Shown piece by piece: positions 9,724 to 13,498 of a DNA stretch of 34,618 nt. Location of the stretch: positions 1 through 34,618 of the forward strand of contig CANJQI010000040.1 of NCBI GenBank assembly GCA_947476215.1, in the 5' to 3' direction. The notes below the pieces were generated by a model. The model was not told where the DNA came from, searched no databases, and saw only the letters and a list, made by a program, of their open reading frames with translations. Position 1 is the first letter of the stretch. Each line of letters starts with the position of its first letter. This DNA comes from Betaproteobacteria bacterium. Lineage in GTDB: Bacteria; Pseudomonadota; Gammaproteobacteria; Burkholderiales; SG8-41. Both the position numbers and the translations under genes were made by a program.

Positions 9724-10608
9724 TCATAACCGGATGCCCGCCTGGAGCATGGCTGTGCGCACGCGCTCATGACAACTGTCCACCAGCGGCGTCAGCGGCA
9801 GGCGTATACCCGGCTTGATAAGCTTCATTTGATTGACTGCCCATTTAACGGGAATCGGATTGGCTTCGACAAACAGATTGCGGTGCAGCCCAAGCAGTTG
9901 ATTGTTGATGTCGCGCGCGCGCGCGACATCGGACTTCAGTGCCGCCATGCACATCTCATGCATCAGGCGCGGCGCGACATTGGCGGTCACCGAAATCACA
10001 CCGCAGCCGCCCAGCAACATCATCGCCAGGCCGGTCGCGTCGTCACCACTGTAGAGGGCAAAATCGGCGGAAACCTGACGCAACAGGTCAGAGGCGCGCT
10101 CGAGATTCGCGGTTGCGTCTTTCAGTCCGACGATATTCGGAATCCGCGCCAGCCGCAGCATGGTGTCGTTGGACAAATCGGCCACCGTGCGCCCCGGCAC
10201 GTTGTAGACGATCATCGGCATATCGACAGCCTCCGCAATGGTGCGAAAGTGCCGATACAAGCCTTCCTGTGTCGGCTTGTTGTAGTACGGGACAACCGAT
10301 AAGGTCATGTCGGCGCCTGCCTTGCGCGCATAGTCCGAAAGCTCAACGGCCTCGCGTGTCGAATTGGCGCCGGTGCCCGCGATGATGGGAACCCGGTGCT
10401 TTGCGTGTTCGGCGGCGGTTTTGATCAACAGGTGATGCTCGTCAAAATCCACGGTTGGCGATTCACCGGTGGTACCTACCACGACGATGCCGTCCGTGCC
10501 CTCTGCGATGTGCCAATCGATCAACTTGCGAAACGCATCGAGATCGAGGCTGCCATCGTCCTGCATGGGCGTGACTATCGCCACCAGGCTACCCTTCAGC
10601 ATCGCCAT
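9724..10608 (-). CDS. dapA: 4-hydroxy-tetrahydrodipicolinate synthase
   Basis: DapA condenses pyruvate and aspartate semialdehyde in the lysine/diaminopimelate pathway. The 294-residue TIM barrel is complete. It has [10 protein letters not shown] with the active-site threonines near 46-47, Y135 in IVYNVPGRT, and the Schiff-base lysine K163 in [18 protein letters not shown] and the [13 protein letters not shown] loop are also present. The stop codon overlaps an ATG at 9727, and the real bamC start lies 12 bp further on, so dapA and bamC are closely coupled. The start could be ATG 10608 or ATG 10602 ([13 protein letters not shown]). Confidence 0.97.
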
Positions 10609-10640
10609 CTATTTGATTTTCCGTGAAATTTATCTAGCGC

Positions 10641-10652
10641 CGGAAATTTCCG
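10641..10652. promoter_or_regulatory. 12-bp palindrome in the dapA leader
   Basis: CGGAAATTTCCG is a perfect palindrome 33-44 bp upstream of the dapA start. Just upstream on the minus strand is TAAAAT, a possible -10 box. It could be an operator for dapA, but no known consensus was recognised. Confidence 0.3.
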
Positions 10653-10738
10653 ACGGCATATTTTACCGCATTCATCCACGCCTAACGATATTACTGTGAC
10701 CCGCGCCCACTCTTAGCGTTCAATGTTTCACATTGCCG

Positions 10739-11245
10739 TTATGGCGCAATCGCGCAGATGCGCTGCACCATCGCTGGTTTCGGTGCATCAACATAGACGT
10801 CCTCATAGGCCACGACGCGCAACCGATCTCGCACCAGTGCAAGCAGTTCGCCAGCCTGAAGCAGGAAATCGGGACTACGCGGGCGTCCGTAGCGTTCGTT
10901 GCCGACCGCAAACGTCTCATAGATCAATACGCCCTGCGTACTCAGCGCGGCAAGCAGGTGCGGGAATAATGGCCGGTGCAGATAATTGGCAACGACGATG
11001 GCGTCGAATCGACGATCCATATAAGGCCACGGCGCGCTTTCAAGATCGGCGGCGCGCACGGTCACCCCGGCGACACCTTCAAGATCACGCAGTGCCACGC
11101 TGTCGCGGTCAACCGCCTCCAGTCGCAGCGACATTGCGGCAAGATAGTGCGCGTGCCGCCCGTGGCCGCACGCAATGTCGAGAACCGACCCGCCAGCGCG
11201 GATCAGCGGCGCGTATCGGCAGATCCAGGGGGACGGCTGGTCCAG
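10739..11245 (-). CDS. Class I SAM-dependent methyltransferase lacking a canonical start
   Basis: The open frame starts at the codon right after the homospermidine synthase stop and runs 168 codons. It reads PSPWICRYAPLI, then the SAM-binding motif I VLDIACGHGRH, then the acidic strand-2 end LEAVDRD, a later DAIVVANYLHRPL block, and GVLIYETFAVGNERYG. Homologues begin at or just before PSPW. No ATG, GTG or TTG exists in this frame between the upstream TGA (11246-11248) and the ATG at 11134, which lies beyond motif I and would give a non-functional protein. Expression must use CTG 11245, another non-canonical codon, or UGA readthrough, unless the gene is dead. The methyl acceptor is unknown. 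The gene precedes dapA by about 130 bp. Confidence 0.75.
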   Translation of the reverse strand: MDQPSPWICRYAPLIRAGGSVLDIACGHGRHAHYLAAMSLRLEAVDRDSVALRDLEGVAGVTVRAADLESAPWPYMDRRFDAIVVANYLHRPLFPHLLAALSTQGVLIYETFAVGNERYGRPRSPDFLLQAGELLALVRDRLRVVAYEDVYVDAPKPAMVQRICAIAP

Positions 11246-12664
11246 TCAATCCACCCGAAAGTTCTTGAACTGCCACGGATCAGACGTATCGACGTCCTCG
11301 GGAAACAATTTGCCGCGGTCGTCGAGCGGCGTCCAGTCACTGTATGTGCCCACGACATTTCCGAGATAAGGATTCGCGATCTCCAGTACGCGCTGAAAAT
11401 CCAGGTCATCCGGATCGCATACCCCGCGTTGCGGATTCTCGATCGCCCAGATCACGCCCGCCATCACACCCGCGGCGACCTGCAAGCTGGTTGCATTGTT
11501 ATAGGGTGCGAGCTTGCGCGCCTCGTGTATGGAGAGCTGCGAACCATACCAGTATGCGCCCCGCGCATGCCCCATCAGCAACGCGCCCAGTTCATCGACG
11601 CCGTCGTAAATCTCGTCCATCAGGATGCGCTTGTTCTCCGGCTGCGCCCAGTTCTTGCCCGCATACTCATGGAGTGACAATACGGTATTGTCGCAAGGAT
11701 GGTAGGCGTAATGACAGGTGGGGCGATAGACGACCTTTTTCCCGGCGCGCACGGTGTAAAAATCAGAGATGGAAATCGCCTCGCCGTGGGTAATCAGGTA
11801 GCCGTGGTACTGTCCTTCCATCGGTGTCCATGATCGCACACGCACCGAAGCGCCGGGGCGGGTCAGATATATCGCGGCCTTGCTGCCAAAGCGATGCTGT
11901 TTGGCGTCGCGCGGGAAATGCTTCTCGTGCGACCCCCAACCGAGCTCGCACGGCTGCGAACCTTCGCCGACGAATCCGTCCACCGACCACGTATTGACGA
12001 ATTCGAGGCGGCGTTTACCGGGAATCGCGACTTGCGTATCGCGCTCGGAGCAATGTATAACCTTGACGCCAAGTTCCATGGCCAGTTTCGCCCAATCAGC
12101 CTTGGTTTCAGGCTTGGCCGCGCGCTTCCGGATATCGCGTGAAAGATTGATCAGGGCCTGCTTTACCCAGTGCGATATGAGGCCAGGATTGGCGCCGTGC
12201 GTGGGTATCACCGTCGGTCCGCCATTCGGATAGCGCGTGCGCAGCTTCATCACCGCCTCGCGCAGGCCGTAATTGGAACGATGCGATGCCGACACGCTGG
12301 TATCCGTATAACCGCCCAGCCATGGCTCTATGCAGGTATCAAGATACATTACGCCGCGCTTGTGACAATACTCTATCAATTCGACGCTCGACACCTCGAC
12401 TGAAAGATTGAGCAAAAAATCCCCCTTGGCGAGCAAAGGGTCGAGAACGGTGCGGTAATTTTCACGCGTCAACGGCTGCACGGTGAATCTGATATTGAAA
12501 TGCTTCGCCTCTTCAATGCCGCGCGTATCCCCCGTTACGATGCGTATGCGTTCACGCGGCATGTCGATATGCCGCAGCAGCAGCGGCAACGTTCCCTGCC
12601 CCACGGATCCAAATCCCACAATAACGAGGCGCCCGGAAAATTCGACGTGTTTTTTTTCAATCAT
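11246..12664 (-). CDS. hss: Homospermidine synthase
   Basis: This 472-residue NAD-dependent enzyme makes homospermidine from putrescine (or putrescine plus spermidine). It is close to the length of characterised bacterial enzymes (about 477). The N-terminal Rossmann motif is VIVGFGSVGQGTLPLLLRH. Other blocks include SVEVSSVELIEYC, YLDTCIEPWLGGY, THGANPGLISHWVKQAL, NTWSVDGFVGEG and TCHYAYHPCDNTV. Polyamine production in the cytosol is the expected role. The gene ends in FRVD followed by TGA, and the following codon is already in the methyltransferase frame. I see no strong ribosome binding site before the ATG at 12664. Confidence 0.95.
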   Translation of the reverse strand: MIEKKHVEFSGRLVIVGFGSVGQGTLPLLLRHIDMPRERIRIVTGDTRGIEEAKHFNIRFTVQPLTRENYRTVLDPLLAKGDFLLNLSVEVSSVELIEYCHKRGVMYLDTCIEPWLGGYTDTSVSASHRSNYGLREAVMKLRTRYPNGGPTVIPTHGANPGLISHWVKQALINLSRDIRKRAAKPETKADWAKLAMELGVKVIHCSERDTQVAIPGKRRLEFVNTWSVDGFVGEGSQPCELGWGSHEKHFPRDAKQHRFGSKAAIYLTRPGASVRVRSWTPMEGQYHGYLITHGEAISISDFYTVRAGKKVVYRPTCHYAYHPCDNTVLSLHEYAGKNWAQPENKRILMDEIYDGVDELGALLMGHARGAYWYGSQLSIHEARKLAPYNNATSLQVAAGVMAGVIWAIENPQRGVCDPDDLDFQRVLEIANPYLGNVVGTYSDWTPLDDRGKLFPEDVDTSDPWQFKNFRVD

Positions 12665-12799
12665 AGGTCGTGTGCTCGCGATACGTGATTTGCGGCGCCG
12701 AGTTTAGCATTTTTGACTTGCATCGAGATCAAACGGCTACAAGCGTGATGTGCGCCGCGCGTATATCCACGATTCCTTTCAGTGGCTACAATTCGCTGC

Positions 12800-13498
12800 A
12801 TGCTACAGTGGCTCAATCCCGATGATCCTTTTCCGAGCGTGGAGCGTGCGCTCCATGAGCCCAATGGACTGCTCGCGGCCGGCGCGGACCTGTCGGTATC
12901 CCGCCTGATAGATGCATACAGTCGGGGGATTTTTCCGTGGTTCAACTCCGGCCAGCCCGTGCTCTGGTGGAGCCCCGATCCGCGCATGGTCTTGTTTCCG
13001 CGCGAGCTGAAAGTATCGCGCTCACTGCGCAAAGTGCTGCGCAACCGCGAGTACGAAGTGCGTGCGGACACGAGTTTCGAAGCGGTCATGCAGGGGTGTG
13101 CACAACCACGGCCATCGCAGGACGGCACCTGGATCAGCGCCGACATGATCGCCGCCTATTGCACGTTGCATCGCATGGGCATCGCGCACTCGGTCGAAAC
13201 CTGGATTGATGGCGAACTCGCCGGCGGCTTGTACGGCATTGCGATCGGCGGGGCATTTTTCGGGGAATCCATGTTTACCCGCATCGCCGATGCGTCAAAA
13301 ATTGCTTTTGTGCATCTGGTGCGGCAAATCGAGCGCTGGGAATTCGGCGTCATAGACTGCCAGATGCGCACGCACCACCTTGCCTCCCTCGGCGGCCGCG
13401 AAATCTCGCGCGCTGACTTTGTATCCAAACTTGGATACTTGGTAAACTGCGGCGGTGTAATCGGCGAATGGAAACTGGACCATGACCTTGCTCGGTGA
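12800..13498 (+). CDS. aat: Leucyl/phenylalanyl-tRNA-protein transferase
   Basis: Aat adds Leu or Phe from aminoacyl-tRNA to proteins with N-terminal Lys or Arg, marking them for ClpS/ClpAP. The ATG at 12800 ([13 protein letters not shown]) matches the family N-terminus and gives 232 residues; a GTG at 12782 is also possible. Family blocks are visible: [58 protein letters not shown] and [18 protein letters not shown]. The 3' end overlaps bpt by 17 bp, so the two N-degron transferases are translationally coupled. Confidence 0.96.

Follow-up and report, generated by a model that had tools for sequence, protein, structure and literature searches.

A methyltransferase frame without a canonical start codon directly abuts the stop codon of a homospermidine synthase gene in a betaproteobacterium

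Among 688 annotated starts of E. coli that have been confirmed by N-terminomics, ATG accounts for 628, GTG for 50 and TTG for 10, and CTG for none (PMC13245402). Initiation complexes formed on CUG are described as less stable (PMC11497404), and expression from CTG was about ten times below that from TTG in a study cited in PMC11983097. A documented CTG start is that of the rep gene of the FIB replicon in F-like plasmids, where N-terminal analysis and mutation indicate that the full protein is made from a CTG with a good ribosome-binding site, and where annotations wrongly show a GTG located 14 codons downstream of the true start (PMC11983097). A second relevant arrangement is that of termination-reinitiation pairs, in which the stop codon of one gene and the start codon of the next lie within a few bases of each other on the same strand, as in ATGA and TGATG overlaps (PMC10666635; PMC6728339). 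According to PMC10666635, reinitiation in E. coli is most efficient where the two genes overlap or are separated by very few bases, and it falls steeply as the gap grows.

The locus described here shares features with both. It lies in a stretch of 34,618 nucleotides of a draft betaproteobacterial genome (contig CANJQI010000040.1, hereafter the window), in which a methyltransferase frame follows the stop codon of hss, the homospermidine synthase gene. As in the FIB rep gene, a full protein could be made from a CTG; the window case differs from it in being known from sequence alone, and the passages of PMC11983097 on FIB rep do not place its CTG after the stop of another gene. Stop and start would also lie on the same strand and within a few bases, as in termination-reinitiation pairs, provided that the CTG is the start, but this start would be CTG and would abut the stop without overlapping it. 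A CTG restart at such a junction would be an uncommon variant of known mechanisms, namely CTG starts and stop-start coupling. The hss-methyltransferase pair was not found in the best 10 of 162 literature matches on homospermidine synthase, methyltransferase, operon and Betaproteobacteria, nor in the listed matches on CUG or CTG starts and coupling.

The junction and its two proteins

The hss gene (11246-12664, minus strand) encodes 472 residues from an ATG start to a terminal FRVD followed by TGA. Its product carries the Pfam domains Sacchrp_dh_NADP and Sacchrp_dh_C, matches solved homospermidine synthases at an E-value of 3e-165 and is, judged by its sequence, a plain homospermidine synthase. 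All 13 hss copies displayed, from the window and 12 relatives, end in RV, one further residue and a stop, which indicates that the window copy ends where expected. Its TGA (11246-11248, minus strand) directly abuts a frame of 168 codons and a TAA (10741-10739) that occupies 10739-11245 of the same strand and encodes a class I SAM-dependent methyltransferase. The first codon of this frame, a CTG (11245-11243), is in frame with LDQPSPWICRYAPLIRAGGSVLDIACGHGRH..., open as far as the TAA; it is the only near-cognate codon 5' of the conserved PSPW and the proposed start. The first in-frame ATG (11132-11134, minus strand) lies 37 codons in, past SAM motif I, and is unlikely to be a functional start.

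A first-pass annotation of the sequence had drawn attention to this arrangement, and its description holds: coordinates and translation agree that the hss TGA is followed by a CTG already in the methyltransferase frame, the base 3' of the TGA is a C, no in-frame GTG or TTG precedes the ATG at 11134, which falls beyond VLDIACGHGRH, and the frame is family-like from PSPW on, the matches of relatives beginning at query residue 1-4. They do so in all 63 gene-bearing genomes among the 74 of the family, and the columns at which at least 85% of the other 81 aligned sequences agree include P4, S5, W7 and R10. Because homology extends from the first codons, the methyltransferase frame is no chance extension. 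The junction is real as assembled, and it is unusual.

Another frame also opens at the junction, where a TTG (11249-11247) overlaps the hss stop (TTGA) and would compete with the CTG; it runs for 46 codons (11109-11249, minus strand) and contains a CCC-C run where slipping by +1 would lead into the methyltransferase frame. The next gene 3' of the methyltransferase is dapA (9724-10608, minus strand), identified by TIGR00674 with 366 bits against a cut-off of 206. A scan of 10550-12900 returned one promoter-like site, inside hss, where 1.4 were expected, and five terminator-like sites where 2.3 were expected, none of them between hss and the methyltransferase gene. None of the repeats listed lies at the junction, where one might have marked a deletion. 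A perfect 10-nt inverted repeat with arms 32 nt apart (11129-11180) is found within the methyltransferase frame, where it spans the end of motif I and the first ATG.

The assignment of the second protein to the class I SAM methyltransferases is based on the Pfam domain Methyltransf_25 (PF13649; E-value 1.2e-8, 35.9 bits against a cut-off of 27), on motif I and on a Rossmann-like predicted fold. The predicted model has a pLDDT of 87.9, and its best matches in the PDB are TehB and Slr1183. Methyltransferases of the TehB type (2xva, 3mer) resemble it in fold, with TM-scores of 0.76-0.78 normalized by query length, and are only weakly similar in sequence, at about 18-24% identity in the structural comparison. 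An identity as the tellurite methyltransferase TehB itself was rejected on the NCBIfam equivalog cut-offs, with scores of 29.8 bits against 303, 26.4 against 218 and 20.9 against 219.5. The first helix of the model is formed by residues 6-14, so that no part of the predicted fold would be missing from a protein beginning at the CTG.

The junction in relatives

The family comprises 74 genomes and the genus of the window 15, and the methyltransferase is present in 63 of the 74. Start codons were surveyed at 83 loci, made up of these 63 (window included), three other members of the order and 17 named contigs that include Rhodocyclaceae, Pseudoduganella, Limnohabitans and Rhodoferax; of the 49 genomes with matches in one search, 12 order-level ones stand outside the survey. 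The first-pass annotation had proposed looking for an ordinary start in relatives, and one is available nearly everywhere: 81 of the 83 loci have an in-frame ATG, GTG or TTG 5' of the conserved W7 and after the preceding stop, although its presence does not prove its use. Both remaining loci, the window and L019, have a CTG there. Fourteen of the 15 genus members bear the gene, and among them the window alone lacks a canonical start 5' of the conserved domain residues. In L019, from genome G034, a CTG seven codons 5' of position 1 precedes PSAW and is a candidate start with a weak Shine-Dalgarno-like site (-3.3 kcal/mol); either a CTG start that arose independently or an error of the draft could explain it. 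Position 1, the codon occupied by the CTG in the window, is most commonly Leu in the relatives (23 of 82), and the CTG is probably an old internal Leu codon of the methyltransferase. In some relatives, such as Limnohabitans with MHGTE-PSAW, the sole start lies three codons before position 1, so that a window protein beginning at position 1 would be only slightly shorter than natural ones.

An hss gene lies 5' of the methyltransferase gene in 33 of the 83 loci, spread over several genera; the number is a minimum, each stretch covering about 1.5 to 4 kb on the 5' side or stopping at a contig end. The pairing is thus old and not new in kind, which speaks against a newly arrived hss. The suggestion that the start was lost when hss arrived upstream accordingly survives in part: a start does appear to have been lost, together with the spacer, but the pairing itself is not recent. 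In all 33 loci hss ends by its own stop before the methyltransferase, and in 13, window included, it does so within 100 nt of the first aligned methyltransferase codon. The distance from the hss stop to position 1 is 29-82 nt in the 12 others and 0 nt in the window, the only one of the 33 loci where the stop lies directly at position 1. The stop is TGA in nine close pairs and TAG in four, and the phase of the spacer varies. The spacer or overlap of the 12 other close pairs holds a start, -1 to +61 nt after the hss stop (a range that takes in starts at least five codons before position 1), and in genome G091 (L095) the two genes share a TGATG stop-start overlap. Phase 0 across one stop occurs in three of these 12 pairs (36 nt in L029, 75 nt in L079 and 45 nt in L090), near the one in three expected, so that a single stop before an in-frame methyltransferase is ordinary. 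The only canonical start in L029 is a TTG 12 nt past the hss TAG, with a Shine-Dalgarno energy of just -2.6 kcal/mol; its genome, G010, is placed as sister to the window, with weak support, in a four-gene tree (82/86).

The interval between the two genes is changeable, as whole genes lie within it elsewhere: opposite-strand genes of the enolase superfamily and of TauD type in G014 and G007, and opposite-strand genes for MutL, a methylaspartate mutase and a phosphoenolpyruvate carboxylase in G009. The carboxylase gene of G009 (L101, 5449-8171) is split in two frames that cover profile positions 1-573 and 647-919, which is a frameshift or a draft error. On the other side of hss, aat is divergent and lies about 120 nt away in the window (12664-12782), so that the window locus is compact on both sides of hss. 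By coordinates, aat and hss are about 7-10 kb apart in G001, G002, G005, G007 and G012 and 0.7 kb apart in G006; they are on different contigs in G008, G009, G010, G013 and G014.

The window hss is closest to those of G014 (89%) and G007 (88%), and its methyltransferase, dapA, aat and bamC genes are closest to those of G008, G009 or G013. Similarly, the window falls together with G014, G007 and five others in the hss tree (100/99), where a group of the window, G008 and G009 is rejected (p-AU 4e-6 and 3e-8 in two analyses), and a tree of mutS, aat, bamC and dapA groups it with G010, G003, G008, G009 and G013 (97/98). The four-gene data reject the window with G014 and G007 (p-AU 0.030), as well as the window with G003, G013, G008 and G009 without G010 (p-AU 0.036), and do not reject the window within the eight-member hss group (p-AU 0.149), all tested groups having been chosen after the hss identities were known. 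The methyltransferase gene yields a weak tree (p-AU 0.066 and 0.085 in one analysis, 0.21 and 0.09 in another), and dapA alone gives p-AU values of 0.079, 0.229 and 0.017. It is possible, judging from these trees, that hss was replaced in the window, with its end as the breakpoint. G013 has three hss matches on small contigs (L042, L044 and L045), one of them 55% identical to the window gene; this divergent copy is either a distinct paralogue or contamination.

Proposed restart at the CTG

These comparisons point to a junction that arose by deletion. In the ancestor, hss and the methyltransferase gene would have been separate, with a spacer between them and a start of the methyltransferase some 5-10 codons 5' of the present frame. 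Loss of the spacer, the start and about 5-10 N-terminal codons, as suggested by the relatives, would have placed the hss stop directly 5' of the internal Leu codon CTG. Ribosomes ending hss at the UGA could then begin again directly on the neighboring CUG, with a GGGUG in the last hss codons as a guide. A CTG start puts Met, not Leu, at the N terminus, and the product would therefore begin with MDQPSPWICR, not with the LDQPSPW named by the first-pass annotation, and would keep the whole predicted methyltransferase fold. That the junction is the scar of a spacer deletion and that the intact methyltransferase is translated at a low level by restart on the CUG is the most likely reading, with about an even chance of being right. 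The broader proposition, that a gene deprived of its spacer, ribosome-binding site and start is kept alive by termination-reinitiation on a former Leu CUG, with hss codons serving as the ribosome-binding site, is held more tentatively and stands somewhat below even.

The Shine-Dalgarno-like GGGTG (11252-11256, minus strand) is predicted to pair with the 16S tail at -7.2 kcal/mol, with an aligned spacing of 8 nt to the CTG. The anti-Shine-Dalgarno sequence had to be assumed, since no match to a 16S rRNA gene was found in the organism's own assembly, a draft that is 98% complete. The score is equalled or bettered by 7 of the 73 best ATG candidates of relatives (the ATG with the best Shine-Dalgarno score within 20 codons at each locus, loci with GTG or TTG only being left out) and at 24 of 439 internal Leu codons in 14 window genes. 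The site before the CTG, stronger than 415 of these 439, is thus suggestive, just short of the 5% level; its bases encode the RV residues of hss, which are conserved anyway. The RNA around the CTG is predicted to fold at -21.0 kcal/mol, more stably than at the ATG starts of relatives (median -13.6) and at most internal Leu codons (median -17.8), which counts against an efficient start. Given the Shine-Dalgarno-like site, the zero intergenic distance and the TGATG of G091, a non-AUG start coupled to hss termination appears to be the best remaining of the three options offered by the first-pass annotation, which had also considered readthrough of the UGA and a recent loss of the start codon.

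Silence, readthrough and error as alternatives

An unlikely but substantial alternative is that the methyltransferase is a young pseudogene, silent or nearly so since a recent loss of its start, whose frame has not yet decayed. The lack of a canonical start in this genus member alone fits such a loss, as does the competing TTG in the other frame. Under simulated neutral drift the frame stayed open in 52% of runs at 0.05 substitution per site (16% with indels) and in about 25% at 0.1 (2% when indels were added at 5% of substitutions); a very recent loss, too, would be expected to leave the frame open. On the other hand, the conserved motifs are intact, the Shine-Dalgarno-like site is still in place, no stop or frameshift interrupts the frame and the gene evolves at an ordinary rate. 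Thus, it changes 3 of the 61 columns conserved at 85% or more, against a median of 2 among all 82 aligned sequences, 13 of which change more. In a comparison of rates at 45 loci that include most of dapA as well, the gene ranks 25th for differences at the first two codon positions relative to the third, and its end branch, although long (rank 6 of 45), is matched by that of its dapA (likewise rank 6). Comparison with the four nearest copies gives a dN/dS of about 0.13-0.19 at a dS of 1.0-1.7, which is near saturation. Constraint is also apparent in codons 1-37, which would be free to change were the downstream ATG the start, with a dN/dS of about 0.08-0.24 against G008, G013, G003 and G009 and with 28, 27, 26 and 28 of the 37 residues shared, respectively. 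Neither disabling changes nor relaxed selection was found in the gene body, and the accumulation of disabling mutations that the first-pass annotation had named as a sign of decay is not borne out. The start loss would thus be either recent or harmless to function.

Readthrough of the UGA would yield an Hss-methyltransferase fusion of about 641 residues (an estimated 70 kDa or so), and the shared frame, the single UGA and the C that follows it speak in its favor. A UGA followed by C is a leaky context in E. coli. The fusion raised by the first-pass annotation finds no comparative support, however: distance, phase and stop codon vary across the 13 close pairs, every upstream hss has its own stop, the methyltransferase is complete by itself and an RF2 gene is present in this genome. 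With neither the frame nor the stop conserved across relatives, readthrough was rejected as the leading reading and is very improbable. A restart on the TTG followed by a +1 slip at CCC-C, which would reach the methyltransferase frame after seven codons, has in its favor that initiation is stronger at TTG than at CTG and that this TTG overlaps the stop. Slippage is known to occur at CCC-C and is normally rare there. A CCCCC before the Trp codon is found in none of the 12 other close pairs, and the conserved P4 and S5 lie in the CTG frame, not in the TTG frame, which makes this route highly unlikely as well. An error of assembly or sequence, the true genome having a spacer or a start codon, is less far-fetched and still improbable. 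The window comes from a single draft genome of 326 contigs, and L019 too is from a draft, of about 390 contigs; against an error, hss ends natively, the methyltransferase is homologous from its first codons, and neither a partial gene nor a broken frame is seen. A sequencing slip in the C run, which would put the TTG in frame, is not favored, as the resulting AVPW would mismatch the family's PS-x-W while the LDQPS read in the window agrees with relatives and could not result from a one-base slip into the TTG frame.

Because gene finders usually look for ATG, GTG or TTG as the start of a bacterial gene, this methyltransferase would probably be truncated to an ATG beyond its cofactor motif or left out. 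A silent gene would make the junction the record of an ordinary recent loss. If restart on the CTG is true, the gene survives the loss of its start by leaning on the terminating ribosomes of its neighbor, and the locus would be a compact natural test of how far adjacency to a stop makes up for a poor start codon. It would also exemplify, in nature, how a deletion can turn a sense codon into a new start codon.
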